Below, one piece after another: positions 2,758 to 48,892 of a stretch of DNA of 64,000 nt (its first letter is position 1; every line of letters starts with the position of its first letter). Source of the stretch: Portibacter lacus (GTDB taxonomy: Bacteria; Bacteroidota; Bacteroidia; Chitinophagales; Saprospiraceae); contig NZ_JAJNKA010000014.1 in NCBI RefSeq assembly GCF_021533215.1, positions 62,001 through 126,000 of the forward strand, given 5' to 3'. A program made the translations under genes and the position numbers. Under the pieces are notes generated by a model. The model made no database searches. It saw only the letters and a list, made by a program, of their open reading frames with translations, and was not told the DNA's origin.

Positions 2758-2796
2758 GATGATTTAAAATCATTCCACTACATAAATAAATCAAGT

Positions 2797-14393: not shown

Positions 14394-15501
14394 AAAACTT
14401 CATAGTATCACCTCTAGTGAGCCTATGAATGTTTTTTTGATCTGCGTAATCATCGAAATCTGCGGGAAACTTTTTCCACTGTCACCTTTCAAATTTAAAA
14501 TCAGCACTGCAATCCTGGCCTACGCCAAAGCCAGTGTTCGGCTTACAGATTTAATTCTTTAACTATCCATGATCATTGATAAAAACTTCATAGTATCACC
14601 TCAAGTGAGCCTATGAATGTTTTTTTGATCTGCGTAATCACCGAAATCTGCGGGAAACTTTTTCCACTCTCACCTTTCAACTTTAAAATCAGTTCTACAA
14701 TCCTAGCCTACGCCAAAGCCAGCGCTCGGTTTACAGATCTAATTCTTTAAACTAACTATCCATGATTATTGATAAAAACTTCATAGTATCACCTCATGTG
14801 AACCTATGAATGTTTTTTTAATCTGCGTAATCACCGAAATCTGCGGAAACTTTTTCACTCTCAACTTTCAGATTTAAAATCAGTTCTGCAATCCTAGCCT
14901 ACGCCAAAGCCAGCGCTCGGCTAACAGATCTAATTCTTTAACTATCCATGATCATTGATAAAAACCTCATAGTATCACCTCAAGTGAGCCTATGAATGTT
15001 TTTTTTGATCTGCGTAATCACCGAAATCTGCGGGAAACTTTTCCCCTATCTCCTTTCAACTTTAAAATCAGCTCTGCAATCATGGCCTACGCCATAGCCA
15101 GTACTCGGCTTACAGATCTAATTCTTTAATTATCCATGATCATTGATAAAAACTTCATAGTATCACCTCAAGTGAGCCTATGAATGTTTTTTTGATCTGC
15201 GTAATCACCGAAATCTGCGGAAAACTTTTCCACTCTCTCCTTTAAAATCAGCTCTGCAATCCCAGCCTACGCCAAAGCCAGTGCTCGGCTTACAGATCTA
15301 ATTCTTTAAACTAACTATCCCTGATCATTGATAAAAACTTCATAGTATCACCTCAAGTGAGCTTATGAATGTTTTTTTAATCTGCGTAATCACCGAAATC
15401 TGCGGAAAACTTTTCCCTACTTCCTTTCAAATTTAAATTCAGCTCTGAAATCCCAGCCTACACCAAAGCCAGTGCTCGGCTTACAGATCTAATTCTTTAA
15501 A
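14394..15501. repeat. Six tandem ~188-bp intergenic units, each with a bidirectional terminator-like hairpin
   Basis: Most of the 14303-15550 gap is a direct tandem array. The shared word CATAGTATCA starts at 14401, 14589, 14782, 14968, 15156 and 15341, giving spacings of 188, 193, 186, 188 and 185 bp. Each unit begins with a hairpin (14399-14429, 14587-14617, 14780-14810, 14966-14996, 15154-15184, 15339-15369): outer arms TTCATAG/CTATGAA, a 2x2 internal loop, inner arms TCAC/GTGA, and a 5-nt loop. It is followed by TG and a run of 7-8 T on the + strand, and by G plus five T on the - strand. Then come two ATCTGCG words, a short AAGCC/GGCTT hairpin, AGATCT, and the palindromic ATGATCAT spacer. 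Reading frames through it are short and not conserved, so it is non-coding. The 14303-14390 part shows no gene. Confidence 0.9.
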
Positions 15502-15550
15502 CTCTCCACTTTAAACTCTCTTCTATTCTCTATCCACTTTCATCTATCCA

Positions 15551-29571: not shown

Positions 29572-32500
29572 ATGACATCTTATAATACTTCACACTTTAA
29601 TTCTAAATTTAATAACCCATTACGCTGTTTTAAATTTATTTTACTCCTATTTATTACTTCCAATGTTATTGGCCAAAATAGTGGCCCAAATTCTGAAAGT
29701 GCTTTTTGGCATCCGGAAAACTTTGCTATTTCTAATGATATTCATTCTGAAGTAAATAGTTATACAACATGCCCAAACTCTTTCTCTGGTACATTTGAAA
29801 ATGATTGTGGAACAGATCGATCATTAAAAACCTATATGAAAGGTTATTCGAGTTCTAATCACAATAGTGGTGATTACACAATCAATATTCCATCTTCTCC
29901 ATATGCAACGACTAGAGTTATCGTCGAGGTATGGATAGAAACCAATGATTGTAATGGTAACAATCCAGCTAATAACATCACTTTTGATTTTGGCGGCTTG
30001 GATAACATTTGTGTTAAGGGTGTCTTGGCAGTACAAAGTAGTGCTAGTGGTGTATCAGAATATTTTTATCGATACATCTATACAGGAAGCCCTACTTACG
30101 TTAATATCATTGATGTTAATGGTTGTGATCCAACATCAATGGTTGTAGTTGTGGAAAGAGATGAGCCTAATGCTACATCTTCATTAACTACATTTGATCA
30201 AGAATTGCACGGACAAAGTGCACCTGAATGTATTACTGACATTATACTATTAGGGCAGAATGATGTAGACAGAAATATTACTATTGCAGTTCCTATTCAT
30301 GAAAAAGATGAAGTTAGAAAAGTGACTGTCGAAGTTGAAATTAAAACTTCTGGTTCAAATACGGTTTTAGCAACACATTCTCAAGTTTTCAATACGGCAA
30401 CAGGCGCACAAGGAAACGGAGAAGCAGCATTATATGAAATCACCTTAGAAGATGTACCAGGCGGTGGAGATATTGCTGAAGTTACTGTATGCTCACCTTA
30501 TCCTAATGGAGATTCATTCGGTGTAGGTTCGATTACTGCAACAACCAACGAAATATGTGTTACTTGTTTATTAACGGGTGAAATGACAGATGATGAAATA
30601 TGCAAAGGAGAAGAGGCAAGTATTTCAGCTGATTACACGAGCACAAGTTATGAAGGCAATAATGATAATGGCAATCAGTTAGAAGTTTCTTATTTATGGG
30701 AAACCGGAGAAACAACTAGTACAATAAATGTATCACCTACCGAAACAACTACTTACAGCTGTACCATTACTGATGAATTAAATTGTAAAACAGTAGAAAC
30801 AGCAACAGTAACAGTTAATGAAATCATCATTGATAATTTCGATGATGAATATTTATGTGAAGACGAAGGAAAGCAGACTTCTTTCGGAGGAGCGACTCCG
30901 CTAGGAGGTGTGTATTCAGGTACCGGTGTTGAAGATAATGGAGATGGTGCGACGTATACTTTTAATCCTGCTACGGCAGGACCTGGAGTGCATGAAGTTA
31001 CTTATACGTATACTGATGATAACGAATGTAGTAACTCAGCTACCATAGAAGTTACAGTTTATCCAGGTCTTTCTATTCAGACGAATGGATTCTGTAATGA
31101 AGAAAGTGAAATCAATATTGGTATATCTATTACTGGAGGATCAGGAGACTTTCAGTATGAATGGGAAGGCCCTAATGGTTTCGAATCTACTAATAGTGAT
31201 CTGTTCAATGTTGAACCAGGTACATATTATGTTACTGTAACAGATAAATATGGTTGCTATGAAACTGCAAATGAAACTCAGATAGCATGTTGTTTGCCTC
31301 CAACTATAGATTGCCCAAGTGATGTTACTATTCAATGTGATGACTCGGATGATCCTTCGTTTACAGGGGAACCAACTACCGGTGAAGGATGTGGCGAAAT
31401 TACAGTGACTTACGAAGATAGTGATGAAGCGGGTGAGTGTGATAATGAGAGAATAATAACAAGAACTTGGAAAGCGAAAGATGCTGACAACAATTATATT
31501 ACTTGCGAACAAATCATAACGATAGTTGATACAGAAGGACCAGAATTTGAAACTCCTCCTGCTGATATCACTATTTCATGTCTTTCAGACTTGCCTGAGG
31601 CTGAAGAGCTTAATTGGACGGACAATTGTGATGGAGAAGGAAGTGTGTTAGGTGAAGACGAAAGTGATGGTGAAACTTGTCCAGAAACCATTACAAGAAC
31701 ATGGTCTTATACTGATGCTTGCGGGAATCCTGGAAGTGTTAGTCAAACGATTACTATTCATGATCAAACGAAACCAGAAATCACATCTAATTTTGATGAT
31801 GATGAGTTAGGTTGTAACCCTACTGTTGTGCCTCCGACTTTCAGTGTTAGTGACAATTGCCTTGATATTACAATGGAACCAACTGTTAATACAGATGGGC
31901 CTCAAAATACTGGTTGTGCATATACACAAAAATGGACAGCTACTTATATAGATGCTTGTGGCAATGAAGCGGATGAAGTTTCGATTACCTATACATGGAC
32001 TGAAGACAGTGAAAAGCCAGTAATTAATACAGAAGCTGAAGACAAGGACTTGGGTTGTAACCCAACAATTGTAGAACCTGTATTTACAGTTTCAGACAAT
32101 TGTCTACTTAAGAACATGACACTTACTCCAGAAACTGATGGACCAACTAACCAAGGATGTTATTATACACAGACATGGACTGCTAACTACACTGATGGTT
32201 GCGATAATATAGCAGATGAAGAAAGTGTTACTTATACATGGAAAATTGATACTGAAAAGCCTGTGATCTCAACTGATGCAGAAGATAAAGACTTAGGTTG
32301 TAATCCTACTATTGTGCCTCCGACTTTTATGGTAGAAGATAACTGCCTTGATGTAACTATGGACGCAGAAGTAACTTACGAAGGGCCTACTGCTGAAGGT
32401 TGTGTATTGACTAAATCTTGGACAGCTACTTATACAGACGAATGCGGAAATGAAGCAGTTCCAGTTACGGTTTCTTATACATGGACTGTTGATACTGAAA

Positions 32501-35500
32501 AACCAGTCATATCTACAGACGCAGAAGATAAAGACTTAGGTTGCAATCCTACTGTTGTGCCTCCTACTTTCACTGTTACGGATAACTGCATGGATGAAAC
32601 ACTAGATGTTACTCCTGTGACTGATGGACCAACAAGTCTTGGATGTTATTATACTCAGACTTGGACGGCTAATTATACGGATGCTTGTGGAAATATTGCA
32701 GTACAAGAATCTGTTACTTATAATTGGTCAGAAGATACTGAGAAGCCAGTGATTAGTTCTGATTCACAATCTAAAAATTTAGGTTGTAATCCAGAATTTG
32801 ACGCACCTATTTTCTATGTCAATGATAACTGTCTTGATATTGCAGATATGACTATAAGTGCTGTTACAGATGGACCTCAAAGCAATGGTTGTGCAATGAC
32901 TCAAACTTGGACGGCTAATTATAAAGACCATTGTAATAATGAGGCGGATGAAGCTTCAGTTACCTATACATGGATCTCTGATGCGCAAGAGCCAGTCATA
33001 TCCACTGACGCTGAAGATAAAGACTTAGGATGTAATCCTACTGTTGTGCCTCCGACTTTCACTGCGACAGATAATTGTCTAGATGCAACGGTCAATGTTG
33101 TTCCAGAAACAGATGGACCTACGAAGGATGGTTGTTACTATACACAAACTTGGACAGCCAATTATGGAACTTCTTGTGATACTCCAGCTGAGCCAAAAAG
33201 CGTTACGTACACATGGAAAATTGATACTGAAAAACCTGTGATCTCAACTGATGCAGTAACTAAAAACTTAGGTTGTAATCCTACTGTTGTGCCTCCGACT
33301 TTCAAAGTTGAAGATAACTGTCTTGATATTACGGTAGAAGCAGAAATTTTTGTTGCTGAACCGATTGCAACAGGTTGTGTAATGACTAAATCTTGGACAG
33401 CTACTTATACAGACGAATGTGGAAATGAAGCAGTTCCAGTTACGGTTTCTTATACATGGACCGTTGATACTGAAAAACCAGTCATCGAAACGGACGCAGA
33501 AGACAAAGACTTAGGTTGTAATCCTACTGTTGTGCCTCCGACTTTCACTGTTACGGATAACTGCATGGATGAAACACTTAATCTTACTCCTGTGACTGAT
33601 GGACCGACTAGTCTTGGATGTTATTATACTCAGACTTGGACTGCTAATTATACGGATGCTTGCGGAAATATTGCAGCACAAGAATCTGTTACTTATACTT
33701 GGTCACAAGATACTGAGAAGCCAGTGATTAGTTCTGATTCACAATCTAAAAATTTAGGTTGTAATCCTGAATTTGACGCACCTATTTTCTATGTCAATGA
33801 TAACTGTCTTGATATTGCAGATATGACGATAAGTGCAGTTACTGATGGACCACAAAGCAATGGTTGTGCAATGACTCAAACTTGGACGGCTAATTATAAA
33901 GACCATTGCAATAATGAGGCGGATGAAGCTTCAGTTACCTATACGTGGATCTCTGATGCGCAAGAGCCAGTCATATCTACTGATGCAGAAGATAAAGATT
34001 TAGGTTGTAATCCTACAGTAGTACCTCCTACATTTACCGCTTTTGACAAATGTCTAGATGCAACGGTCAATGTTGTTCCAGAAACAGATGGACCTACGAA
34101 GGATGGTTGTTACTATACACAAACTTGGACAGCCAATTATGGAACTTCTTGTGATACTCCAGCTGAGCCAAAAAGCGTTACGTACACATGGAAAATTGAT
34201 ACTGAAAAACCTGTGATCTTAACTGATGCAGTAACTAAAAACTTAGGTTGTAATCCTACTGTTGTGCCTCCGACTTTCACTGTTGAAGATAACTGCCTTG
34301 ATATTACGGTAGATGCAGAAATTTTTGTTGCTGAACCGATTGCAACAGGTTGTGTAATGACCAAATCTTGGACAGCTACTTATACAGACGAATGTGGAAA
34401 TGAAGCAGTTCCAGTAACGGTTTCTTATACATGGACCGTTGATACTGAAAAACCAGTCATCGAAACGGACGCAGAAGATAAAGACTTAGGTTGTAATCCT
34501 ACAGTTGTGCCTCCGACTTTCACTGTTACGGATAACTGCATGGATGAAACACTTAATGTTACTCCTGTGACTGATGGACCGACTAGTCTTGGATGTTATT
34601 ATACTCAGACTTGGACGGCTAATTATACGGATGCTTGCGGAAATATTGCAGTACAAGAATCTGTTACTTATACTTGGTCAGAAGATACTGAGAAACCAGT
34701 GATTAGTTCTGATTCACAATCTAAAAACTTAGGTTGTAATCCAGAATTTGACGCACCTATTTTCTATGTCAATGATAACTGTCTTGATATTGCAGATATG
34801 ACTATTAGTGCTGTTACGGATGGACCTCAAAGCAATGGTTGTGCAATGACTCAAACTTGGACAGCTAATTATAAAGACCATTGTAATAATGAGGCGGATG
34901 AAGCTTCAGTTACCTATACGTGGATCTCTGATGCGCAAGAGCCAGTCATATCTACTGACGCAGAAGATAAAGATTTAGGTTGTAATCCTACAGTAGTACC
35001 TCCTACATTTACCGCTTTTGACAAATGTCTAGATGCAACGGTCAATGTTGTTCCAGAAACAGATGGACCTACTAATGATGGTTGTTACTATACCCAAACT
35101 TGGACAGCAAATTATGGAACTTCTTGTGATACTCCAGCTGAGCCAAAAAGCGTTACGTACACTTGGAAAATTGATACTGAAAAACCTGTGATCTCAACTG
35201 ATGCAGTAACTAAAAACTTAGGTTGTAATCCTACTGTTGTGCCTCCGACTTTCAAAGTTGAAGATAACTGCCTTGATATTACGGTAGATGCAGAAATTTT
35301 TGTTGCTGAACCGATTGCAACAGGTTGTGTAATGACTAAATCTTGGACAGCTACTTATACAGACGAATGTGGAAATGAAGCAGTTCCAGTAACGATTTCT
35401 TATACATGGACCGTTGATACTGAAAAACCAGTCATCGAAACAGACGCAGAAGACAAAGACTTAGGTTGTAATCCTACTGTTGTGCCTCCTACTTTCACTG

Positions 35501-38500
35501 TTACAGATAACTGCATGGATGAAACACTAGATGTGACTCCTGTGACTGATGGACCAACAAGTCTTGGATGTTATTATACTCAGACTTGGACGGCTAATTA
35601 TACGGATGCTTGTGGAAATATTGCAGTACAAGAATCTGTTACTTATAATTGGTCAGAAGATACTGAGAAACCAGTAATCTATAGTGATTCAGAGGATAAA
35701 GATTTAGGTTGTAATCCGGAATTTGACGCACCTATTTTCTATGTCAATGATAACTGTCTTGATATTGCAGATATGACCATAAGTGCTGTTACGGATGGAC
35801 CACAAAGTGATGGCTGTAAATGGACACAAACTTGGACAGCTAACTATTCTGACTACTGTCAAAATGCAGCTGATCAAGTTTCAGTAACATATACATGGTC
35901 GGAAGACACTGAGAAACCTGTAATCTCTAGTGATTCAGAAGATAAAGACTTAGGTTGCAATCCTACTGTTGTGCCTCCGACTTTCACTGTTACGGATAAC
36001 TGCATGGATGAAACACTTAATGTTACTCCTGTGACTGATGGACCGACTAGTCTTGGATGCTATTATACTCAAACTTGGACGGCTGATTATACGGATGCTT
36101 GTGGAAATATAGCTGAACAAGAATCTGTTACTTATACTTGGTCAGAAGATACTGAGAAACCTGTAATCTCTAGTGATTCAGAAGATAAAGATTTAGGTTG
36201 TAATCCTGAATTTGACGCACCTATTTTCTATGTCAATGATAACTGTCTTGATATTGCAGATATGACTATAAGTGCTGTTACTGATGGACCACAAAGCAAT
36301 GGTTGTGCAATAACACAAACTTGGACGGCTAATTATTCTGACAACTGTCAAAACGTAGCTGATCAAGTTTCAGTGACATATACATGGTCGGAAGACACTG
36401 AGAAACCTGTAATCTCTAGTGATTCAGAGGATAAAGATTTAGGTTGTAATCCTGAAATCATACCACCAACATTTAGTGCAACAGATAATTGTAAAGAACT
36501 GAGAATAGATATTGCACCGACTACAACTGGTCCTAGTAATCAAGGATGCTATTATACTCAAACTTGGACGGCTGATTATACGGATGCTTGTGGAAATATA
36601 GCTGAACAAGAATCTGTTACTTATACTTGGATTAGTGCTTCTGAAAACCCAGAAATTACTACAGACGCTGAAAGTCAAGACTTAGGATGTAATCCTGAGG
36701 TCATTGCGCCAACTTTTGAAGTAATAGATAATTGTATAGAAAGTGGTAATGATGTTATAATTACTACAGAAGGTCAAGTTAATGAAGGATGTCATTATAG
36801 TCAAACTTGGACAGCTAACTACGAAGGAATTTGTGGCAGTGCAGAAGAAAAATCGATTACTTATACATGGACTATAGATACTGAAGATCCTGTAATCACA
36901 TTCATCAATCCAATGATGGAAGGGTTACAAAATGGAGACATCATGAAAATACAGTGTTATGGCCAAAATCCAAATTGGCAGATACCAGAAGCTTCAATTA
37001 ATGATGTATCCGTTTCAGATAACTGTGATGCAGAAGTTGAAGTCAATGTAACAGAAGTTAAAATAGGTGATGGAGATTGTGCACAAGATGGCTATATCCA
37101 AAGACTAAGATGTTCATGGACTGCTACTGATGCTTGTGGAAACTCAACATTACTATACATCTTCATGGATATCGTTGATGAAATACCACCGGTATTTACT
37201 TCTATACCATTGGATGCGACTGTTACTTGCGACAATATTCCAGATGCCCCAACAATGACTGCTGTAGATGAATGTCTATGCGCAGACGTAACATTCGAAG
37301 AGGAATTTATTGCAAGCGAATGTGTAAGAGATCAAATGATCAAAAGAACTTGGACTGCAACTGACTGTTGTGGAAACGAAGCAACAACAACTCAGACCAT
37401 ATTCTTTACTGATGACACGGCACCAACATTAACAATAGCATTGCCTGGTGATCTTGATATTACAGAAGACTTGACACTTACATTTGATTGTAATTCTGGT
37501 GGTATTCCATCTGAATATGATGCATTATCACTTGAAAATGCAACATCTACTGAAATGTGCAGTGGAATTCCAGTAATTACATTGGATGAGAATATATCGC
37601 TTTACGATAATTGTAATAATGGAGCATTAGAAGTTCAAACCTATACTTGGACAACATCAGATGCATGTGGAAATACTAAGAGTATCACACTAACTATCCG
37701 TGTAGTTGATACAGTAGCGCCAGTTATCGTTGGTTCTTCTGAATATGTTTGTGGAAGTGATGATGACATACCATTTGTATATTCATTAGATGCATGTGGT
37801 AATAGTAATATGTCCTTTTTTGATCGTGAAGTAGATGGAGCATGTGGAAATGTAGTAGAAAGAGTTTATGAAGCAGTTGACAGATGTGGGAATTACGCCA
37901 CTTTCGTTCAGACCATAATTTTTGATGATGTTACAAGTCCTGAAATTTCTATCAATGCTGAGGCATTAGTAGGTATTGCAAATGGCGATACTGTAAGCGT
38001 TAGTTGTGGTGAGAATTTCTTAAGCATTGGATTAGACGATGCAGTATTTACTGATGAGTGTGATAGACCATTAGAAACTTCTTTCGAAGAAATAGAGCAA
38101 GGAAGTATGAATTGTGATGAGGGTGGAAAATCACTAATGAAATTAGTATGGAAGGCAGAAGATTTCTGTGGAAATGTTTCTGAGTATGCAGTTTATGTTA
38201 GAACAATAGATACAGAGGCTCCAGTATTTGAAAACTTTAGAAGTGAATTAACTGTATCATGTGATCGATCAATTCCTGATACGGAAGCTATCGATAATTG
38301 TGGAAGTGCAACTGTTCAATATGAAGATGAAATTATTCCTGGAGATTGTCCGAATACATATGATGTCAAAAGAAGAATTTTAGCATCAGATGAGTGCGGT
38401 AATACTTCTGAGCGTACTCAATTGATTCATGTTGTGGATCAACAAGGCCCACAAATCTTAGGACTTGAAGAGTTCATATGTGAAGATATCTCTATGCCAG

Positions 38501-39762
38501 AAGTTAGTGCTGTAGATAATTGTGGAAATGCAGACATAGAAGTTTTCATGGTTCAGGACACGGTTTTCAGCGAAGAATGTGACGCACAGTACTATATCAG
38601 AAGAATGTGGTCAGCAACAGATTTATGTGGAAATACAACGGAAGTAGAACAAATGATTTCTATCCAAGATGTTACCGCTCCGGAATTGATTTATAATGAA
38701 GAGTTGAAAAAATACATGGGCAATAGTGCAACAGTGTATATGTCTAACCCTTCTGACATGCAATTCATCGACGAAATAGATTGGTATACTGTTCTAGGTA
38801 GAGATAATTGCGTAGGAGCGATCATTAACCCTGAGTTCACAGAAAATTCTATTAAATCAGAACAATGTGCAGAAGATGGATGGTATGAAAAGAGATCATA
38901 TACTTGGGAAGTGTCTGATGCTTGTGGAAACAAAAGCAGAATGGAGATCAACTTGATTATCATTGATGACATTCCACCAGTATTGGTTAATCAACCTCAA
39001 AGTGCTAACTTCGGTTGTAACCCAATTCCAGATCTTGGAAACTTAGAACCACCTACATTTGGTAGTTTGGTTGACTCAATGAGTGGAAGTATCACATTTA
39101 CTGAGATAGAAGATATGACAGATGATATCATGACTATTACGAATACTTGGTATGCACAAGATGAATGTGGTAATGTATCTCAAGCTGTTCAGACGCTTGC
39201 TTCTATTGTGAATTCTGACTTAGCTACGACTATCGAAACGGAAGAAAATATTAGATGTAACTCACATCAAAATATTGTAACCGCAGACGTAACTGGAGGA
39301 CAAGCACCTTTCACATATGAGTGGACAATTCAAGGAAAAGATTGTCAGATTCAAGGTGGCCAAGGTACTGAAACGATAGAAATTTATGTTGGGTTCCATA
39401 CGGTTAACTTAACGCTTCAAGTGACTGATGCAAACAATTGTATAACATTCAGTGAAAAAATCATAGAGTGTCTTACAAAAGGTGAGTTAGATGGTGAGAT
39501 TGAAACCTTAGCAATTGAGGAAATCACTCCTAACCCAAGCGTTGAATCATTTGAGCTTAATGTTTATTCAGCATTTGATCAAAATATTAATTACCAAATT
39601 GTTAATCCATTAGGACAATTGGTAAAAAATCAAAACGCAGATGTTATCAAAGGATTAAATTCATTGATGATAGATGTTAATGATTTCCCAGGTGGAACTT
39701 ACTACATCAAAGTAACCGATGGAGAATCTACCGATCTTAAGAAATTCATGAAGATAAAGTAG
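29572..39762 (+). CDS. Giant exported Cys-rich repeat protein (HYR/Ig-like) with T9SS sorting domain
   Basis: 3396 aa, signal peptide ending near NVIGQ. Residues about 40-330 are two beta domains, followed by Ig-like (PKD/SprB-type) and HYR-like domains up to about 735. Residues 736-2440 are 21 tandem modules of 80-82 aa. Each carries the words LGCNP, DNC, GC ... TQTWTA, a later Cys (CGN or variant), VTYTW and DTEKPV, so about four Cys per module. Twelve modules form three copies of a four-module unit of exactly 975 bp. Residues about 2441-3200 are diverged HYR-like modules (DACGN, D-x-x-x-P), then one PKD-like domain, then a T9SS type A sorting domain (ITPNPSVESFELNVY ... GGTYYIKVTDG ... KKFMKIK). 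Likely a cell-surface adhesin or fibre stabilised by disulfides; no catalytic motif is seen. Confidence 0.88.
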   Translation: MTSYNTSHFNSKFNNPLRCFKFILLLFITSNVIGQNSGPNSESAFWHPENFAISNDIHSEVNSYTTCPNSFSGTFENDCGTDRSLKTYMKGYSSSNHNSGDYTINIPSSPYATTRVIVEVWIETNDCNGNNPANNITFDFGGLDNICVKGVLAVQSSASGVSEYFYRYIYTGSPTYVNIIDVNGCDPTSMVVVVERDEPNATSSLTTFDQELHGQSAPECITDIILLGQNDVDRNITIAVPIHEKDEVRKVTVEVEIKTSGSNTVLATHSQVFNTATGAQGNGEAALYEITLEDVPGGGDIAEVTVCSPYPNGDSFGVGSITATTNEICVTCLLTGEMTDDEICKGEEASISADYTSTSYEGNNDNGNQLEVSYLWETGETTSTINVSPTETTTYSCTITDELNCKTVETATVTVNEIIIDNFDDEYLCEDEGKQTSFGGATPLGGVYSGTGVEDNGDGATYTFNPATAGPGVHEVTYTYTDDNECSNSATIEVTVYPGLSIQTNGFCNEESEINIGISITGGSGDFQYEWEGPNGFESTNSDLFNVEPGTYYVTVTDKYGCYETANETQIACCLPPTIDCPSDVTIQCDDSDDPSFTGEPTTGEGCGEITVTYEDSDEAGECDNERIITRTWKAKDADNNYITCEQIITIVDTEGPEFETPPADITISCLSDLPEAEELNWTDNCDGEGSVLGEDESDGETCPETITRTWSYTDACGNPGSVSQTITIHDQTKPEITSNFDDDELGCNPTVVPPTFSVSDNCLDITMEPTVNTDGPQNTGCAYTQKWTATYIDACGNEADEVSITYTWTEDSEKPVINTEAEDKDLGCNPTIVEPVFTVSDNCLLKNMTLTPETDGPTNQGCYYTQTWTANYTDGCDNIADEESVTYTWKIDTEKPVISTDAEDKDLGCNPTIVPPTFMVEDNCLDVTMDAEVTYEGPTAEGCVLTKSWTATYTDECGNEAVPVTVSYTWTVDTEKPVISTDAEDKDLGCNPTVVPPTFTVTDNCMDETLDVTPVTDGPTSLGCYYTQTWTANYTDACGNIAVQESVTYNWSEDTEKPVISSDSQSKNLGCNPEFDAPIFYVNDNCLDIADMTISAVTDGPQSNGCAMTQTWTANYKDHCNNEADEASVTYTWISDAQEPVISTDAEDKDLGCNPTVVPPTFTATDNCLDATVNVVPETDGPTKDGCYYTQTWTANYGTSCDTPAEPKSVTYTWKIDTEKPVISTDAVTKNLGCNPTVVPPTFKVEDNCLDITVEAEIFVAEPIATGCVMTKSWTATYTDECGNEAVPVTVSYTWTVDTEKPVIETDAEDKDLGCNPTVVPPTFTVTDNCMDETLNLTPVTDGPTSLGCYYTQTWTANYTDACGNIAAQESVTYTWSQDTEKPVISSDSQSKNLGCNPEFDAPIFYVNDNCLDIADMTISAVTDGPQSNGCAMTQTWTANYKDHCNNEADEASVTYTWISDAQEPVISTDAEDKDLGCNPTVVPPTFTAFDKCLDATVNVVPETDGPTKDGCYYTQTWTANYGTSCDTPAEPKSVTYTWKIDTEKPVILTDAVTKNLGCNPTVVPPTFTVEDNCLDITVDAEIFVAEPIATGCVMTKSWTATYTDECGNEAVPVTVSYTWTVDTEKPVIETDAEDKDLGCNPTVVPPTFTVTDNCMDETLNVTPVTDGPTSLGCYYTQTWTANYTDACGNIAVQESVTYTWSEDTEKPVISSDSQSKNLGCNPEFDAPIFYVNDNCLDIADMTISAVTDGPQSNGCAMTQTWTANYKDHCNNEADEASVTYTWISDAQEPVISTDAEDKDLGCNPTVVPPTFTAFDKCLDATVNVVPETDGPTNDGCYYTQTWTANYGTSCDTPAEPKSVTYTWKIDTEKPVISTDAVTKNLGCNPTVVPPTFKVEDNCLDITVDAEIFVAEPIATGCVMTKSWTATYTDECGNEAVPVTISYTWTVDTEKPVIETDAEDKDLGCNPTVVPPTFTVTDNCMDETLDVTPVTDGPTSLGCYYTQTWTANYTDACGNIAVQESVTYNWSEDTEKPVIYSDSEDKDLGCNPEFDAPIFYVNDNCLDIADMTISAVTDGPQSDGCKWTQTWTANYSDYCQNAADQVSVTYTWSEDTEKPVISSDSEDKDLGCNPTVVPPTFTVTDNCMDETLNVTPVTDGPTSLGCYYTQTWTADYTDACGNIAEQESVTYTWSEDTEKPVISSDSEDKDLGCNPEFDAPIFYVNDNCLDIADMTISAVTDGPQSNGCAITQTWTANYSDNCQNVADQVSVTYTWSEDTEKPVISSDSEDKDLGCNPEIIPPTFSATDNCKELRIDIAPTTTGPSNQGCYYTQTWTADYTDACGNIAEQESVTYTWISASENPEITTDAESQDLGCNPEVIAPTFEVIDNCIESGNDVIITTEGQVNEGCHYSQTWTANYEGICGSAEEKSITYTWTIDTEDPVITFINPMMEGLQNGDIMKIQCYGQNPNWQIPEASINDVSVSDNCDAEVEVNVTEVKIGDGDCAQDGYIQRLRCSWTATDACGNSTLLYIFMDIVDEIPPVFTSIPLDATVTCDNIPDAPTMTAVDECLCADVTFEEEFIASECVRDQMIKRTWTATDCCGNEATTTQTIFFTDDTAPTLTIALPGDLDITEDLTLTFDCNSGGIPSEYDALSLENATSTEMCSGIPVITLDENISLYDNCNNGALEVQTYTWTTSDACGNTKSITLTIRVVDTVAPVIVGSSEYVCGSDDDIPFVYSLDACGNSNMSFFDREVDGACGNVVERVYEAVDRCGNYATFVQTIIFDDVTSPEISINAEALVGIANGDTVSVSCGENFLSIGLDDAVFTDECDRPLETSFEEIEQGSMNCDEGGKSLMKLVWKAEDFCGNVSEYAVYVRTIDTEAPVFENFRSELTVSCDRSIPDTEAIDNCGSATVQYEDEIIPGDCPNTYDVKRRILASDECGNTSERTQLIHVVDQQGPQILGLEEFICEDISMPEVSAVDNCGNADIEVFMVQDTVFSEECDAQYYIRRMWSATDLCGNTTEVEQMISIQDVTAPELIYNEELKKYMGNSATVYMSNPSDMQFIDEIDWYTVLGRDNCVGAIINPEFTENSIKSEQCAEDGWYEKRSYTWEVSDACGNKSRMEINLIIIDDIPPVLVNQPQSANFGCNPIPDLGNLEPPTFGSLVDSMSGSITFTEIEDMTDDIMTITNTWYAQDECGNVSQAVQTLASIVNSDLATTIETEENIRCNSHQNIVTADVTGGQAPFTYEWTIQGKDCQIQGGQGTETIEIYVGFHTVNLTLQVTDANNCITFSEKIIECLTKGELDGEIETLAIEEITPNPSVESFELNVYSAFDQNINYQIVNPLGQLVKNQNADVIKGLNSLMIDVNDFPGGTYYIKVTDGESTDLKKFMKIK
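32506..35430 (+). repeat. Three exact-length 975-bp higher-order repeats (four modules each)
   Basis: Inside the giant gene, the word GATAACTGCA of the 'A' module recurs at 32581, 33556, 34531 and 35506, spaced 975 bp each time. One unit encodes modules A (81 aa), B (82), C (81) and D (81). The three units start at 32506, 33481 and 34456, and a fourth A-B begins at 35431. Corresponding modules in different units are nearly identical in DNA, while A, B, C and D within a unit differ clearly. Confidence 0.93.
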
Positions 39763-40043: not shown

Positions 40044-42677
40044 CTAATCTTCCAGCTCGAGAATGATGTTGCTTATAAGTGCAGTCCAACCTGTCTGGTG
40101 AGATGCACCAAGTCCCCTACCCGAATCGCCATCGAAAAACTCGTAAAATAAGTGATGATCCTTAAAATGTTTATTCTTAGAATACAACTTATTTTTGGTC
40201 TTTGTATGGTAATGATATTTCCCTTGCGAATCTCTTTCGAATAACTTTAAAAGTCTCACAGACAATTCATGAGCTATTTCTTTCAAGTTCATCATATTTC
40301 CTGAACCAGTGGGCATTTCGTATTTATACTCTGGGCCGTAATACTTATAATACCTTCTTAAAGACTGAATAATAAGGTAATTTAATGGGAACCAAATCGG
40401 TCCACGCCAATTCGAATTTCCACCGAACATATCTGTTCTACTTTCCCCTGATTCATATTTTATAGAATGTCTACCATGATGCTCAAAAACAAACGGATTC
40501 TTTTCATGATATTTTGATAATGATCGGATGCCATATTCTGAGAGGAATTCCTTTTCATCGAGCATTCTTTTCAGAACGTGTTCTAGTCTAAAGCCTCTCA
40601 TTATAGAAAACAAATAATTTCCTTCTTCATTCTCCTCTTCTATTCTTGAAATCAAGCGGGCTAAATCAGGTCTGGTTCTGGTCATGGTGCTGACCCTATT
40701 CTTAAACTCTTTCAGTTCGTCAAAAAGTTTTTTGTTAATGATCTCGATAGCAAATAATGGAATAATACCTACAAGTGATCGAACTTTTAATCGAGAAGTA
40801 ACTCCCGAATCCATTTCCACTACATCATAGTAGAAAGAATCCACATCATCCCAAAGCGAAATATCTTTAGAACCGATATGGTGCATCGCCCAAGCGATAT
40901 TTAGAAAATGCCTAAAAAACTTTGCGGCTGATTCTTCATAAGCCTTATTATATGTACACAGTTCAACTGAAATCCGTAACATATCCAAGGAGAACATGGC
41001 CATCCAACTTGTTGCATCAGCTTGTTGCATCTTTTTAATACCTCTAGGCATATTACTTCGATCAAACACTCCAATATTATCAAGTCCTAAAAACCCACCA
41101 TCAAAAAGACTATTTCCGCTAGAATCTTTTTGATTTACCCACCAAGTAAAATTAATCAGCAATTTCTGAAAACACTTCTCTAAGAAATCCCGATCTCCAA
41201 CATCATTATTCGCTTTTTTATCTTTCTCATAAACATCAAGAACTGCCCAAGAATGAACTGGAGGATTTACATCACTAAAATTCCATTCATATGCTGGTAT
41301 CTGACCATTCGGATGCATATAGGATTCCTTAAGCATAACAAGTAATTGATTCTTAGCAAAATCCGCATCGATTTCTGCAAAGGTCGTAGCGTGGAAAGCA
41401 AGATCCCAGACTGCATACCATGGATACTCCCACTTATCAGGCATAGAGATAATATCCCTATTGGTTAAGTGCGTCCAATTTTCATTTCGTTTTTCATTTC
41501 TGGAAGGAGGAATTTCCCCTGGTCCGCCTTCTATCCATTTATGTACATCTAAGTAATAGAATTGCTTAGTCCACAATAATCCAGCAAAGGATTTTCTTAA
41601 TATATGCTTTCTTTCTTCGTTAATTCCTTTCGGAGTAATGTTATCATAAAAGGTATTGGTTTCCTTAATTCTCTCAGTAAAAACATCTTCAAAATCTTCC
41701 CAAGCATTTTCTTTTTCTTTCTTCGACAATCTCACTTTAAAGACAACTTCTCCATTCGCTGGAACAACTTCATGATACCAAACCCCACATTTAGACCCAG
41801 ATAATTCAGGGTTTATGGAATCTTCACCATGGATGATGTGATTATTAATTCCGTCTTTTACAAATGGGATATCATTAGGAGTATTGTATATTTTTTCATT
41901 ATTGGTTTCATTTTCACAGAACAATGGTATTCCACCTTCAAAGTAAAAACGATACTTTCCATTTCGTATAGAATGTGAAAGGATTTCATTGTCCTTAGAC
42001 ATTGTAATGCTAGGCCTAGAATATCTCGGATTATGTTTCCAGAAGTTTCTAAACCACAGCTGAGGAATAACATGAATTTCAGCTTCTTGATCTGATCTAT
42101 TCTTCACTGTAATCTTAAGTAATAAATCATCAACATCTGCTTTCGCATACTCTAGGTAAATATCAAAGTATTTATCTTCATCGAAGACACCAGTATCGAC
42201 TAGCTCATATTCAGATTGTTCTTTACTTCTTTGATTATTGATGGTCAATTTTTCATATGGGTATGCTGCCATTGGGTACTTGTACAGCATTTTAGCATAT
42301 GAGTGAGTAGGACTTGATTCTAAATGGTAGTAAAGTTCTTTTACATCTTCTCCATGATTCCCTTGACCATTCGTTAATCCGAATAATCGCTCCTTCAATA
42401 TGGAATCATGACCATTCCAGAAAGCAGGTGCAAGGCACAGAATTTCTTGTACATCGCAAAATCCACCTATCCCCTCTTCGCCCCATCGATAAGCATTACT
42501 TCTTGCCATATCATGTGATATGAAATTCCAGGGATCTCCATTTGCACTATAATCTTCTCGAACGGTTCCCCATTGCCTATCGGTCATATAGGGGCCCCAT
42601 TTTTTCCAATTGGTGTTGTTTTGGGAAATTTTTAGCCTTTTTTGCTCTGCATTTAAAGCCTTATTCTGTCCGCTCAT
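40044..42677 (-). CDS. GH63-like (MGH1-type) glucosidase
   Basis: 877 aa, no signal peptide, so presumably cytoplasmic. The N-terminal half is a beta-sandwich beginning KKWGPYMTDRQWGTVREDYS and containing RWGEEGIGGFCD. The C-terminal half is an (alpha/alpha)6 barrel of the GH63/MGH1 type, with WYAVWDLAFHATTFAEIDA, PAYEWNFSDVNPP and GGNSNWRGPIWFPLNYL near the end. Bacterial and yeast members of this long family are annotated as glucosidases; relatives act on alpha-glucosides or glucosyl/mannosyl-glycerate. The conserved WD and EW acidic residues fit an inverting mechanism, but the substrate is unknown. It lies between two secreted-protein genes on the opposite strand and converges with the giant repeat gene. 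Confidence 0.82.
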   Translation of the reverse strand: MSGQNKALNAEQKRLKISQNNTNWKKWGPYMTDRQWGTVREDYSANGDPWNFISHDMARSNAYRWGEEGIGGFCDVQEILCLAPAFWNGHDSILKERLFGLTNGQGNHGEDVKELYYHLESSPTHSYAKMLYKYPMAAYPYEKLTINNQRSKEQSEYELVDTGVFDEDKYFDIYLEYAKADVDDLLLKITVKNRSDQEAEIHVIPQLWFRNFWKHNPRYSRPSITMSKDNEILSHSIRNGKYRFYFEGGIPLFCENETNNEKIYNTPNDIPFVKDGINNHIIHGEDSINPELSGSKCGVWYHEVVPANGEVVFKVRLSKKEKENAWEDFEDVFTERIKETNTFYDNITPKGINEERKHILRKSFAGLLWTKQFYYLDVHKWIEGGPGEIPPSRNEKRNENWTHLTNRDIISMPDKWEYPWYAVWDLAFHATTFAEIDADFAKNQLLVMLKESYMHPNGQIPAYEWNFSDVNPPVHSWAVLDVYEKDKKANNDVGDRDFLEKCFQKLLINFTWWVNQKDSSGNSLFDGGFLGLDNIGVFDRSNMPRGIKKMQQADATSWMAMFSLDMLRISVELCTYNKAYEESAAKFFRHFLNIAWAMHHIGSKDISLWDDVDSFYYDVVEMDSGVTSRLKVRSLVGIIPLFAIEIINKKLFDELKEFKNRVSTMTRTRPDLARLISRIEEENEEGNYLFSIMRGFRLEHVLKRMLDEKEFLSEYGIRSLSKYHEKNPFVFEHHGRHSIKYESGESRTDMFGGNSNWRGPIWFPLNYLIIQSLRRYYKYYGPEYKYEMPTGSGNMMNLKEIAHELSVRLLKLFERDSQGKYHYHTKTKNKLYSKNKHFKDHHLFYEFFDGDSGRGLGASHQTGWTALISNIILELED

Positions 42678-43111: not shown

Positions 43112-46100
43112 ATGAATTTACTAAGCAAGCTATCATATTTCTGCACAATACTTTTTCTAATCTTTTCTTCTTTTCTTCAGGCACAGGATTCAACCTTGGA
43201 TTACAATTTTAAATCGTATGAAATTGCAACATTTGATTCTAAAGCTTTAAAAGCTACTGCTGAACAAAAGAGAAATGATTTCATCAATATACCATTTAGG
43301 CTAAGTAAGAAGTATAGTTGGGATTTAGAACTTACCACTGATAAGGTATTTGCTGATCGATATATCAGTCAAGAAGGTTCTGTTTCTCGAAATAAAGAAT
43401 CCATTTCTCTTCCTATTGTTCTTAGAGGATACAGCGAAAATTCAAATAATATTAAAGCAACCATAACGGTTAATGATAACTTTTTATATGGCCGAGTGGA
43501 TCTAGAAGGTGAAATTATCTTTTTTGAGCCCTTATCCACTTTTGATAAAAATGCAAAACCAGATCAAATTGTAATTTATCGACAATCAGATGTCATAGAA
43601 AGAGAAAATGGTACATGTGCTGCACATGATTTAAAAAAGAAAAAAGATAAAATTAGCCTAACACAAGTTAAAAAGCATAACGAAAACTCGAGATTTCCTA
43701 CTGAATGTAGAGAAGTAGAATTAGCCATTGCAAATGATCATACCATGTATAGTCAATATGGTGCTAACGTTGCTAGTATGAACGCTGGTGTTATTGCCAA
43801 TGTAAATACGGATTATGATGATAATGATTTTGATTATGAAATAAGATTTGTAATCGTCGAGACTTATATTGCTCAGAATTCAGGTCAAAATGCCTGGGGA
43901 GCTACTTCTAATATAGGAGTTTTACTAGATAATTTTACAGCTTGGGGACCTAGCGGATTTAACAACACACATGATCTTGGAGAATTATGGTCTAGAACTG
44001 ATTTAATATATCACAATCAAGATGGTTCTACAAGCGCGTCTACAATTGGATTAGCGTGGGTTGGTACTGTTTGTAGCAGTTCATACAAATATCATGTATT
44101 AGAAGATTATGGAGGGAATGCATCTGGATTGAGAAATTTGGTTTCACATGAAATAGGTCATAATTTTAATTTAGGTCACATTGCAGCCTCTGGATACATT
44201 ATGACCGGTTCTGTAAGTGGGACAACAACATGGAATGCATCGTCAATATCAAATATTAATTCATACGTTTCTGGACTTAACTGCCTGAGTGTTTGTGAAG
44301 GAGGCGGAGGCCCTGGAGGAACTCCACCAGTAGCTAATTTTGATGCAAGTTTAATACAAGAATGTAATCCGACGAGAGTACAGATGAATGATTTATCTAC
44401 CAATAGTCCAACTTCTTGGTCTTGGCAGATTCAGAACGGATCACCTTCTACCTCTACACAACAAAATCCGATAATAGACTTACCAGGTGGAGGAACATAT
44501 GGTGTTACGCTCACAGCAACCAATGAGCATGGTTCTAACACTAAGGTTCTTAACATGAATCTTAACAATATTGGTAATCCACCGAATGCTGCATTTACTT
44601 ATAGTGTAAATGGAAATACAGTAACATTCGATAACAATACAACCAATGGATTAACTTATAGCTGGAATTTCGGAGATGGAAGTACTTCTGCCACTGCTAA
44701 TCCTAGTCATACTTATGCAAATCCTGGAACATACGCAGTAACCTTAACATCTAACAATGACTGTGGTACAGATTCGGAAGTTCAGAATGTAACTATTACA
44801 GATCAGGTTTTTGCTGGTTTCTCAGCAAATGCAACATCGATATGTGAAGGAGAATCTATTACATTTAGCAATCAGTCTTCATCTAATGTAGAAAGTTACT
44901 TTTGGGAATTTGAAAATGGTTCACCATCGACATCTACTCAAGAAAATCCAACAGTCACTTATAATTTCGCAGGCACATTTAATGCGAAACTGACGGTAAC
45001 TGGTGGAGGGACTAACGATGTAGAAACAAAAGTAAACTATGTAACGATTAACGATGTTCCAAATAGTTCATTTACGGAAACCATCGATGGTTATACCGTT
45101 GAATTTGATAACAATACTTTAGGAGGATTTACTTATAATTGGAGTTTCGGAGACGGCAATGCTTCTGCAGCTGCAAATCCAACACATACGTATTCAACTT
45201 CAGGAACATATAATGTCACGTTAACATCTAGTAATGATTGTGGAAGTGATATGTCTATTAGAACTATCACTATAGCAGATGAAGTAAATGCAGACTTTAT
45301 TGTAGATAAGACAACTGATTGTCAAGGAGAAGAATTCCAATTCACAAGTATTTCTACTGGAAATATTACAGAATATTTTTGGCAATTTCAAAATGGTACT
45401 CCTGCAACCTCTACTGAACAAAACCCAAGCGTAATCTTTTCACCAGTCGGCGCTCATACCGTAACATTAACTGTATCTAATTCATTATATAATGATACAG
45501 AAAGTAAAAATAATTTTGTTAAAACAACTGGAGCACCATTTGTAGACTTTGAATTTGATGTAACAGAGAACACAGTCATTTTTGATAACAATACAGTAGG
45601 AGGTTTTTTCTACGACTGGGATTTTGGTGATGGCCAGACCAGTACAAGTCCAAATCCAACGCATACTTATGCAGGACCTGGAGATTATACTGTAACTCTA
45701 GTTTCTGATAATGATTGTAGCGAGGATGAAATAAGTAAAATTGTAAGCATCGAGTCAGATATCGTTGCGAGATTCATTGTTGATCATACAGAGGTATGCG
45801 AAGGTGGTGCGATACAGTTTACGAATACTTCTGAAGGAGTTATTACAAGTTATTTCTGGGAATTCGAAGGAGGAAGCCCTGCAACATCTACGGCTGAGAA
45901 TCCGCAAGTTGTTTTTAATCAAGCTGGAACCTACAATGCAAAGTTGACAGTAAGTGATGGTTCTGCTTCAGATTCAGAAAATAAAATTAACTATATCACA
46001 ATTAACGATGAGCCATCAGCTAGTTTCACATCAAACGTTTCAGGCTATGAAGTAACTTTCGATAACAATTCACTGAATGCCAACTCATATTCTTGGAACT

Positions 46101-48892
46101 TTGGAGATGGCGAAACAAGTGCAACAGCTAATCCAACTCATAGTTATGCAGCACCTGGCAGTTATGATGTAACATTGACAGCAACAAATAATTGTGGAAG
46201 CGATATTGATGTAAGAGAAATTACCATTATAGAAATTGTAGAAGCAGATTTTGATGTATCTGTAGAAGAAATATGTGAAGGAGAAAGCGTTACATTAAAT
46301 AACAATTCTGCAGGCGAAATAGCAAGTTACCTTTGGGAGATAGAGGGAGGCAGCCCAGCAACTTCTACTTTAGAAAACCCAACGATAACGTTTGATAATG
46401 CTGGAGATTTTAATGTAAAACTTACCATAACGGGAGACTTTGGTGCAGTTGACACTAAAACATTGACAGACATAATACAAGTTTCAGATTCACCTGCTGC
46501 TGATTTTTCCTATGTACTGAATGAACTCACAGTGACTTATAGTAACCTTAGTGAGCACTTCGAAACCGTTTCTTGGGATTTTGGAGATGGAACGAATTCT
46601 TCGGATCAAAGCCCGACACATACCTACGCTGCAGAAGGAAATTATAGTGTTACACTTACTGTGACAGGGCTTTGTGGTAACGAGACAAAAGTTATTGAGG
46701 TCCCTGTTTTCAATGAACTATTAGCTAATTTTACAGCTTCTGAAACTACGCTTTGTCCAGGTGAAACATTGGTATTAAATGATTTATCATCTGGTAACCC
46801 TACTGAATGGAACTGGGTAATAGAAGGAGAAGAGATGATTTATGTAACAGAACAAAACCCTGTTATTAATTTGGAAGAGCCAGGCATGTACAATGTGGAG
46901 CTTACTGTAAAAAATTCAGAAGATGAAGACAGCAAGATCATTCAGCAATATATAGAAGTTATGCCTTTACCAGAGGCAGGATTTTCCTACGTTCAAGACG
47001 AAATGCTGATCACCTTTCAAAACAATTCACAGAATGGGAAAAGCTATTCTTGGGATTTTGGCGATGGAACGACAAGTAACTTGCCGAATCCGACTCATGA
47101 ATTTGCAAATGAAGGGAATTACAATGTAAAGTTAATTGTAGAGAATGACTGTAGTCAGATAGAAACCAACCTAGATGTCCCAGTTTTCAATAAATTAGTT
47201 GCAGGGTTCAATACAGATGTAACAGATATCTGTGCGACTAATAATATTCAGTTTACTGATCAATCCTCAGGAAATGCAACTTCTTGGAACTGGACCTTCC
47301 CAGGAGGAACACCAGCGACATCTACAGAACGAAATCCAGTAGTTAGCTATGAAAATGCAGGTACATATGATGTTATTCTTAAGGTAAATAGTGAAACAGA
47401 AGAAATTATAGAAACGAGAACTGATTTTGTCAATGTTAGTGAATTACCTATTTCAGAATTCCAATATGAGGTAGATAAAAACAAAGTTCAATTCTTTAAT
47501 TTGTCTAAAAACGGCGACGAATTTAAGTGGAGTTTCGGCAGTGATGAACTGAGTCCTGTTTTTGAATTTGATGAAGAAAAGGCATATGAGGTTAGTCTGA
47601 TTACTTTTAACAGTTGTTCGTCAGATACCATGACGCAAATAATTGACTTATATAATGAAGCGGACACCTATGGTAACTTTAGCATCTCTAGTAATTCTTA
47701 CTGCTTATCTGATGAAATTTCATTTATAGATTTATCATCTGAAGATATTACAGAATGGTTGTGGGAATTTCCGGGAGGCACGCCATCCACTTCTACAGAA
47801 AAAAATCCAAAAGTAAACTACGAGGCTTTCGGGGTGTATGATGTTAAACTAACCGTAACTAATGGTTTTAATACTAGAGTTGTAGAGTTAGAAGATTATG
47901 TTACTATAATTGAAAAGCCGACTGCTGGATTTGATATAACGCAAATTGATAACAAAATTTTGGTAGAAGATCTTTCTACATTCGGTAGTCATATTAACTG
48001 GACAATAAATAAAAAGATTTCTTTCGATACGCTTACGGAGTTTACCTTTACAAAGAATGGGACATTCGTAGTGGAACAAGAAGTATCTAATTCATGTGGT
48101 TCAAGTATTACAAATGATACCGTTTCCATAACTGTTTTCCCATCAGCTGGATTCTCTTTAGATAGAGCTCAAGGCTGTGCTCCACTAAAGGTCAGTTTTG
48201 AGAGTAGATCTACTGAGAATGCTGATGAAGTTACATGGTTGTTACCTGGAAGTGATCAAGAAGAGATCTCTGGGTATACTCCAGAGGTAGTTTATGAGAC
48301 ACCCGGCAACTATGGAATTAAAGTCATTGCAACTAATTCATTTGGATCAGATACGCTAGAATTGAATTCCATAATAGAAGTATATGCTCAACCAGAAATT
48401 GACGTTGACTTTATTGTTAATAATTTGGAAGTCAATTTTAATGCTGCTTCAGAACGTTACGATTCTATCGTTTGGGATTTTGGAGATGGAAGTGATACTC
48501 AGACTGGAGAAAACGTTACGCATACATATGATGCTGTAGGAGATTATATGGCTGTAGCTACTATTTATTTAGGAGAATGTTATACAGTTTTCAAAAGTGA
48601 AATTTCATTGCTTTCGTCTGGAATAAACGAAGTGGAAGAAATTGATAATTTCCACGTATTCCCTAATCCTGCTAATAAACACTTAGATCTTTCTTTTGAT
48701 GGAATAGAGAATGTTAAGCAAGTAGAAATAATTGATCAATTAGGTCAACAATTATTGGTAAGAGAAATAGATAATCAACGAAGTTCGATCAGAATAAACG
48801 CCCTGAAAAATCTTCCAGCTGGTCAATATTTTGTTGCTTTGATATTAAGCGACAAACCTGCAGTTTATAGAAAATTAATAATTGTCCATTAA
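43112..48892 (+). CDS. Exported reprolysin-like metalloprotease with 18 PKD modules and T9SS sorting domain
   Basis: 1926 aa. Signal peptide ends at FLQAQ, and a prodomain-like region follows (about 26-205). The zinc-metalloprotease domain (about 205-395) has the metzincin site HEIGHNFNLGH (H346, E347, H350, H356) and a Met-turn candidate YIMTGS. After a Gly/Pro linker come 18 PKD-type modules (about 410-1830). Odd modules carry a Cys and a GSPSTST-x-x-NP word; even modules carry the classical WxFGDG and HTYAxPGxYxVTL. The final 80 residues are a T9SS type A sorting domain (FHVFPNPANKHLDLSF ... LPAGQYFVALILSDK). It is predicted to be displayed or released outside the cell and to degrade protein; the PKD stalk may space the protease from the surface. 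Confidence 0.9.
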   Translation: MNLLSKLSYFCTILFLIFSSFLQAQDSTLDYNFKSYEIATFDSKALKATAEQKRNDFINIPFRLSKKYSWDLELTTDKVFADRYISQEGSVSRNKESISLPIVLRGYSENSNNIKATITVNDNFLYGRVDLEGEIIFFEPLSTFDKNAKPDQIVIYRQSDVIERENGTCAAHDLKKKKDKISLTQVKKHNENSRFPTECREVELAIANDHTMYSQYGANVASMNAGVIANVNTDYDDNDFDYEIRFVIVETYIAQNSGQNAWGATSNIGVLLDNFTAWGPSGFNNTHDLGELWSRTDLIYHNQDGSTSASTIGLAWVGTVCSSSYKYHVLEDYGGNASGLRNLVSHEIGHNFNLGHIAASGYIMTGSVSGTTTWNASSISNINSYVSGLNCLSVCEGGGGPGGTPPVANFDASLIQECNPTRVQMNDLSTNSPTSWSWQIQNGSPSTSTQQNPIIDLPGGGTYGVTLTATNEHGSNTKVLNMNLNNIGNPPNAAFTYSVNGNTVTFDNNTTNGLTYSWNFGDGSTSATANPSHTYANPGTYAVTLTSNNDCGTDSEVQNVTITDQVFAGFSANATSICEGESITFSNQSSSNVESYFWEFENGSPSTSTQENPTVTYNFAGTFNAKLTVTGGGTNDVETKVNYVTINDVPNSSFTETIDGYTVEFDNNTLGGFTYNWSFGDGNASAAANPTHTYSTSGTYNVTLTSSNDCGSDMSIRTITIADEVNADFIVDKTTDCQGEEFQFTSISTGNITEYFWQFQNGTPATSTEQNPSVIFSPVGAHTVTLTVSNSLYNDTESKNNFVKTTGAPFVDFEFDVTENTVIFDNNTVGGFFYDWDFGDGQTSTSPNPTHTYAGPGDYTVTLVSDNDCSEDEISKIVSIESDIVARFIVDHTEVCEGGAIQFTNTSEGVITSYFWEFEGGSPATSTAENPQVVFNQAGTYNAKLTVSDGSASDSENKINYITINDEPSASFTSNVSGYEVTFDNNSLNANSYSWNFGDGETSATANPTHSYAAPGSYDVTLTATNNCGSDIDVREITIIEIVEADFDVSVEEICEGESVTLNNNSAGEIASYLWEIEGGSPATSTLENPTITFDNAGDFNVKLTITGDFGAVDTKTLTDIIQVSDSPAADFSYVLNELTVTYSNLSEHFETVSWDFGDGTNSSDQSPTHTYAAEGNYSVTLTVTGLCGNETKVIEVPVFNELLANFTASETTLCPGETLVLNDLSSGNPTEWNWVIEGEEMIYVTEQNPVINLEEPGMYNVELTVKNSEDEDSKIIQQYIEVMPLPEAGFSYVQDEMLITFQNNSQNGKSYSWDFGDGTTSNLPNPTHEFANEGNYNVKLIVENDCSQIETNLDVPVFNKLVAGFNTDVTDICATNNIQFTDQSSGNATSWNWTFPGGTPATSTERNPVVSYENAGTYDVILKVNSETEEIIETRTDFVNVSELPISEFQYEVDKNKVQFFNLSKNGDEFKWSFGSDELSPVFEFDEEKAYEVSLITFNSCSSDTMTQIIDLYNEADTYGNFSISSNSYCLSDEISFIDLSSEDITEWLWEFPGGTPSTSTEKNPKVNYEAFGVYDVKLTVTNGFNTRVVELEDYVTIIEKPTAGFDITQIDNKILVEDLSTFGSHINWTINKKISFDTLTEFTFTKNGTFVVEQEVSNSCGSSITNDTVSITVFPSAGFSLDRAQGCAPLKVSFESRSTENADEVTWLLPGSDQEEISGYTPEVVYETPGNYGIKVIATNSFGSDTLELNSIIEVYAQPEIDVDFIVNNLEVNFNAASERYDSIVWDFGDGSDTQTGENVTHTYDAVGDYMAVATIYLGECYTVFKSEISLLSSGINEVEEIDNFHVFPNPANKHLDLSFDGIENVKQVEIIDQLGQQLLVREIDNQRSSIRINALKNLPAGQYFVALILSDKPAVYRKLIIVH

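Follow-up and report, generated by a model that had tools for sequence, protein, structure and literature searches.

The 64,000-nucleotide stretch of the Portibacter lacus genome analyzed here (the window) carries a giant surface-protein gene, whose parts are listed in Table 1. The Pfam profile HYR_4C (PF23237) matches its product in 11 stretches with a whole-protein score of 249.9 bits, against a cut-off of 27 (E = 1.3e-75). At the C-terminus lies a sorting domain recognized both by Pfam (PF18962, E = 3.3e-8) and by NCBIfam (TIGR04183, E = 6.2e-9, 35.7 bits against a cut-off of 23). Such a C-terminal type A sorting domain is what marks a protein as type IX secretion cargo, and it points to a position on the cell surface. 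A hydrophobic, signal-peptide-like segment can be seen by eye at the N-terminus. The head region that lies close to it gave no Pfam match at E values up to 0.01 and an empty PDB sequence search at E values up to 1, and a single-sequence structure model of it was unusable (pLDDT 43). The C-terminal part is conserved in three genes from two genomes of the same genus.

Table 1. Features of the surface-protein gene, as nucleotide positions in the window, followed by two entries from the comparisons.
Feature	Position	Strand	Basis or remarks
Giant surface-protein gene	29572-39762	+	3396 aa; HYR_4C modules, with a T9SS type A sorting domain at the C-terminus
N-terminal head region, about aa 36-331	29677-30564	+	related sequence in 16 genomes (own included) of 150 from the family
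Array of 21 LGCNP modules	31807-36924	+	starts from 31807 to 36682; mostly 81 or 82 codons start to start
Maximal-scoring lag-975 block	32222-35843	+	3.71 copies, 94.3% identity; ends inside m2 and m17
Unit 1: m4 A, m5 B, m6 C, m7 D	32536-33510	+	module spacing, tree
Likely conversion tract in unit 1, beginning of m6 (C)	33025-33078	+	m8 matches at 48 of 54 nt, m10 at 40 of 54
Unit 2: m8 A, m9 B, m10 C, m11 D	33511-34485	+	module spacing, tree
Unit 3: m12 A, m13 B, m14 C, m15 D	34486-35460	+	module spacing, tree
Two-module repeat A-B'-A-B' (m16-m19) and part of m20	35447-36630	+	lag 489, 88.2% identity
C-terminal 945 aa, HYR-like domains and sorting signal	36925-39762	+	colinear, 47-49% identical in L051, L053 and L054
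L147 array with unlike module	residues about 2009-3998		of a 4249-aa frame
Aureispira grappling hook protein A fragments	PDB 9g8b, 9flw, 9fly, 9flu, 9flx, 9fls		Foldseek matches

Four cysteine columns, at positions 3, 18, 37 and 51 of module A, run by eye through the alignment of all 21 modules and suggest disulfides. Modules 4 to 15 (m4-m15) form a four-module unit, A-B-C-D, that occurs three times in frame. The first-pass annotation of this DNA had described such a unit, and its module lengths of 81, 82, 81 and 81 codons, making 975 bp, agree with ours; the marker word it followed was recovered at all four places (32581, 33556, 34531 and 35506). Across the three units, the pairwise DNA identities of equivalent modules are 95, 95 and 97% for A, 96, 97 and 96% for B, 94, 92 and 98% for C, and 97, 98 and 98% for D. 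Equivalents within m4-m15 are thus 92-98% identical in DNA and 94-100% in protein, whereas neighbouring modules share only 59-67% of their DNA and 51-58% of their protein sequence, as the annotation had stated in qualitative terms. The annotation had named a module tree without A/B/C/D clustering as a refutation; the tree instead separates the four classes with FastTree local supports of 0.972 (A), 0.991 (B), 0.999 (C) and 0.987 (D) on a codon alignment. Class A holds m4, m8, m12, m16 and m18, class B m5, m9 and m13, class C m6, m10 and m14, and class D m7, m11 and m15, while m17 and m19 (B') are sister to B. Equivalents closer than neighbours and a constant multi-module period together identify a higher-order repeat. 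The best lag score is 2039, against 12-15 in 20 codon shuffles, and when the module order of a 31-module run of the gene was shuffled 1000 times, no shuffle produced a peak as high as the one observed at lag 4, whichever lag between 2 and 9 was considered.

The repeat extends further than the interval first assigned to it (32506-35430), which located it correctly but set its limits too narrowly: the lag-975 block is wider on both sides, although it is only downstream of about 32400 that 100-bp segments exceed 90% identity at this lag. Upstream of unit 1, m3 resembles D (85% DNA identity) and m2 resembles C more distantly (70-72%). Unit 3 is followed by A, B', A, B' and then by two diverged modules. 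Because neighbours beyond the block are somewhat more alike, with up to 72% DNA identity (m18-m19), the block pattern falls short of the whole array. Matching module lengths keep the reading frame wherever the ends of the lag-975 block fall, and the gain or loss of a unit would be in frame and change the protein by 325 aa, as the annotation had reasoned.

Compared two at a time, the units show 45, 42 and 28 differences in 975 positions, and third codon positions account for 36, 37 and 22 of these; the repeat first called exact is therefore exact in length but not in sequence. By the NG86 method, dS between units is 0.170, 0.173 and 0.101, and dN/dS is 0.093, 0.064 and 0.099. Module B shows no amino acid change in any pair, against 11, 7 and 9 silent changes. 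Each unit carries 12-29 substitutions of its own, and 15 of the 29 sites at which unit 1 alone differs fall at the beginning of module C (offsets 488-539). With offsets 486-540 left out, dS becomes 0.113, 0.116 and 0.108, which makes all three units roughly equidistant. The segment left out lies at the start of m6 and matches m8, a module of another class, better than its class mate m10 (Table 1); over the following 186 nt, m6 and m10 are 99.5% identical. The simplest reading is a conversion tract, likely with another module class as donor.

The unit copies are under purifying selection, and these values suggest that they have long been neighbours in the gene and are neither recent nor frequently turned over; frequent exchange between units should have erased such differences. 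The origin first proposed, in effect tandem duplication of a multi-module block, is supported; its being recent is at odds with a dS of 0.10-0.17 and a dN/dS of 0.06-0.10, and slippage is not demonstrated. The longest exact matches between units measure 169, 107 and 113 nt, enough for homologous recombination, and all exact repeats anywhere in the gene are shorter than 175 nt.

We also considered whether islands of exact identity between diverged modules are a general feature of such genes, and rejected this idea: exact runs of at least 35 nt were found in only 9 of 5839 pairs of diverged modules (at most 150 pairs sampled per run of modules) and in 7 of 70 runs. Three of the nine are in the window gene, and none arose in any of five synonymous randomisations. 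Within the window gene, A and D agree at silent sites in all 16 comparable codons among the first 18, against 15 of 28 elsewhere (Fisher p 0.0013), with the 18-codon border picked after viewing the binned data. No such excess appears between A and C (6 of 15 against 16 of 38, p 1.0) or between C and D (6 of 14 against 17 of 28, p 0.33), and the A-D island at the module start is suggestive only.

The AlphaFold2 model of one unit consists of strands throughout and contains no helix, with a mean pLDDT of 88.1. Its pTM is only 0.53, so the orientation of the domains is uncertain. The alignment folded (A3) had 29 rows and was derived from a gappy alignment (A2) of 49 four-module stretches and 675 columns by removing the 20 rows less than 45% identical to the first. 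Foldseek gave 27 matches at E values up to 0.001, all with low query-normalised TM-scores (0.16-0.36); the best are tandem beta-sandwich ectodomains such as those of protocadherin and cadherin. A PDB sequence search with the unit alignment returned nothing at E values up to 1. Ig-like domains are about 3.5-4 nm long, and on this scale one unit would measure 14-16 nm and the whole array of 21 modules roughly 75-85 nm.

A syntenic gene in a same-genus genome (L051, in G002) has only 8 modules, counted by eye by their LGC, LGY or FGC motifs, against 21 in the window gene. Similarity in its array falls from lag 1 onwards, with no higher-order pattern. Its downstream neighbour is 75.8% identical to the gene at 40044-42677 (opposite strand), the next gene along is 46% identical to that at 43112, and its C-terminal part is colinear with that of the window gene at 47% identity. 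Residues 1-520 of the window protein gave no tblastn match above 60 bits to this gene. The head region has relatives elsewhere in the family (16 of 150 genomes, own included) yet none above 60 bits in this syntenic gene, so heads may be swapped over a conserved C-terminal part. In a second gene (L052/L152) of G002, a metagenome-assembled genome (MAG), a period of two modules continues as far as the contig end, with a mean DNA identity of 68% at lag 2 against 54% at lag 1 and a best lag of 495 bp.

Repeats of other kinds lie nearby. The adjoining reprolysin-PKD gene (43112-48892) has a two-domain period in its PKD region, with an identity of 0.44 at lag 477 against 0.32 at lag 237, and the best lags in its syntenic counterpart are 474-477. 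Between the MoaC and GH18 genes, an intergenic tandem array (14394-15508) holds about 5.9 copies of about 188 bp, or has a period of 379. A 379-bp piece of it has 76 matches in its own genome, and the array seems to belong to a dispersed element family, some members of which are also tandem.

HYR-type arrays were surveyed with a two-module query. Of 150 genomes from the family, 64 (own included) gave a match. From the matches listed, 80 stretches were chosen on their score and the length of their open frame, without regard to repeat structure; the own genome contributed one. In these stretches and the window gene together, an iterated profile detected 1545 domains. Runs of at least 9 modules entered the test for similarity peaks, and runs of at least 7 the lag profiles and a strict criterion requiring tandem blocks of at least 85% DNA identity with diverged neighbours. 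Short arrays at contig ends were thereby left out, among them L052 (best lag 495 bp) and L057 (474 bp), with periods of two modules each. Similarity peaked at a distance in 10 of 57 runs, window included (p < 0.01 against 1000 order shuffles; about 0.6 expected by chance), although runs from one genome are not independent. Three of these peaks lie at lag 2, two at lag 4, three at lag 6 and one each at lags 5 and 8. Three of 70 runs, window included, satisfy the strict criterion, and the window gene alone does so with a four-module block. Single-module tandem copies of at least 85% DNA identity are commoner than block copies (16 of 70 runs), and an adjacent pair of at least 85% amino acid identity occurs in 14 of 57 runs.

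An even-number (dimer) rule was rejected. Nine of the ten significant peaks have even lags, but odd-even alternation was positive in 29 of 57 runs (Wilcoxon p 0.72), significantly in favour in 10 and in the opposite sense in 3. In an array from Bacteroidales bacterium UBA4345 (L147), an unlike module (WDKSDAP) recurs by eye at spacings of 5, 4, 4, 6 and 4 modules, and mean identity is 76% at lag 4 against 68% at lag 1. Module A has counterparts with up to 66% identity over their best segments in Hanstruepera isolates (L132, L133, L135-L139, L142, L143, L146), more than the 57% that the same-genus MAG reached in that search; horizontal exchange or constraint might account for this. A search of titles and abstract beginnings in part of the literature found no description of HYR arrays with higher-order repeats.

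Such arrays tend to interrupt assemblies. Among loci from named genomes, the matching module is no more than 1 kb from the end of its contig in 23 of 39 (3.1 expected), and on contigs of at least 40 kb in 13 of 23 (0.44 expected); the count uses one listed module per locus, includes several loci per genome and assumes random placement. Another HYR-like gene of the own genome (L070) has an open frame of 2710 aa that runs to the contig end, and so the own assembly also breaks in such a gene. The number of units in the window gene may be a lower bound. Since arrays sit at contig ends, the survey probably under-counts near-identical arrays, and given this excess the full extent of many giant surface proteins in Bacteroidota may be hidden. 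The readiness of such arrays to break assemblies could also suggest that the A-B-C-D repeat itself is an assembly artefact. We consider this highly improbable: an assembler would not create silent substitutions under purifying selection, every unit has its own substitutions, and no exact repeat reaches 175 nt.

Our best reading, to which we give a probability of about 0.72, is that the array forms a stalk at the cell surface, which lengthened as blocks of modules were duplicated and now and then underwent gene conversion. The gene would encode a surface protein exported by type IX secretion, and HYR_4C domains, beta-sandwiches that carry cysteines, would make up its extended stalk. The higher-order repeat would form the middle of this stalk, the N-terminal head would be presented away from the cell, and the conserved C-terminal part would form the base. 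The stalk would have grown by in-frame tandem duplication, of the A-B-C-D block more than three times and of the A-B' block twice, probably through homologous recombination, and matching module length would keep the frame at any breakpoint. Exchange between units would now be rare, with purifying selection keeping the modules and short conversion tracts occasionally copying the start of one module into another. Within this reading the data themselves show the array and its blocks, the purifying selection, the tract, the predicted all-beta fold and the shorter syntenic array, while the surface position, the role as a stalk, the disulfides and recombination as the route of duplication are inferences. 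A different possibility is that the stalk switches length as in Periscope Proteins, with 975-bp units often gained and lost by recombination within the species, altering the reach of the head. The head-stalk-anchor layout, the 95-97% identity of the units with exact stretches of up to 169 nt, and the 8 against 21 modules in the syntenic gene of the same genus all fit such switching. The silent divergence of the units, with dN/dS at most 0.10, indicates on the other hand that they have long gone unhomogenised. Because the copies in the one genome of the species are under purifying selection and appear old, we regard frequent length switching as unlikely.

Selection against similar neighbouring domains, which would misfold together, might also hold the block pattern in place. 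The gap between neighbours and equivalents four modules apart is what such selection would produce, other arrays likewise peak at a distance, and the parts of PMC1553488 consulted allow that anti-aggregation selection may favour the duplication of several domains at once. The same source nonetheless prefers block duplication as the cause, which alone yields the pattern; near-identical neighbours are common in the survey, and odd-even alternation is not general. We therefore find this explanation quite improbable. A broader proposal is that higher-order repeats are a third way to build a bacterial stalk, in which neighbours are too different to misfold and length changes by recombination in steps of whole blocks because long matching DNA is kept at the unit spacing. 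If true, this would reconcile two features that the Periscope paper describes as being in conflict, variable length and divergent neighbours, but we hold it to be decidedly doubtful. The gene does offer a natural test of whether repeated blocks of unlike domains can let a stalk change length without similar neighbours.

Several known systems invite comparison. In the A-band super-repeats of titin and in the higher-order repeats of alpha-satellite DNA, diverged monomers are arranged within a repeated multimer; the nested repeat is alike, while sequence and host are unrelated. Fragments of Aureispira grappling hook protein A, a giant bacterial surface protein, are among the Foldseek matches but rank below cadherins, and their query-normalised TM-scores of 0.19-0.25 at only 10-12% identity give no sign of common descent or function.

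Periscope Proteins, as presented in the sections of PMC8201768 and PMC9704523 drawn on here, have highly similar tandem domains and change length from strain to strain, as in Sgo_0707 (SHIRT), Rib and SasG (G5/E). The window gene shares with them a layout of head, stalk of tandem domains and C-terminal anchor; its separate N-terminal region, with relatives in the family, is a candidate for the functional domain that such a stalk would carry. It differs in that near-identity is reached only four domains apart and in that its units are old. The variation in module number observed, 8 against 21, is between species. The dissimilarity of its neighbours is a soft departure: the four-domain unit itself repeats at 95-97% DNA identity, and the G5/E units of SasG are themselves a repeat of unlike domains (PMC9704523, in part), so that the Periscope class can hold unlike neighbours.

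A further parallel is the expansion of several domains at a time, an established process that PMC1553488, in the parts cited, describes in a survey of 24 proteomes, with repeats found mainly in eukaryotes and a seven-domain unit in nebulin. There, as in the window gene, a block of related domains is duplicated in tandem and similarity peaks several domains away. The window gene provides a clean bacterial example of this process, described mainly in eukaryotes. Unlike the cases in that source, it encodes a bacterial secreted protein whose blocks are still similar enough in DNA for silent changes to be counted and for breakpoints, selection and conversion to be read.
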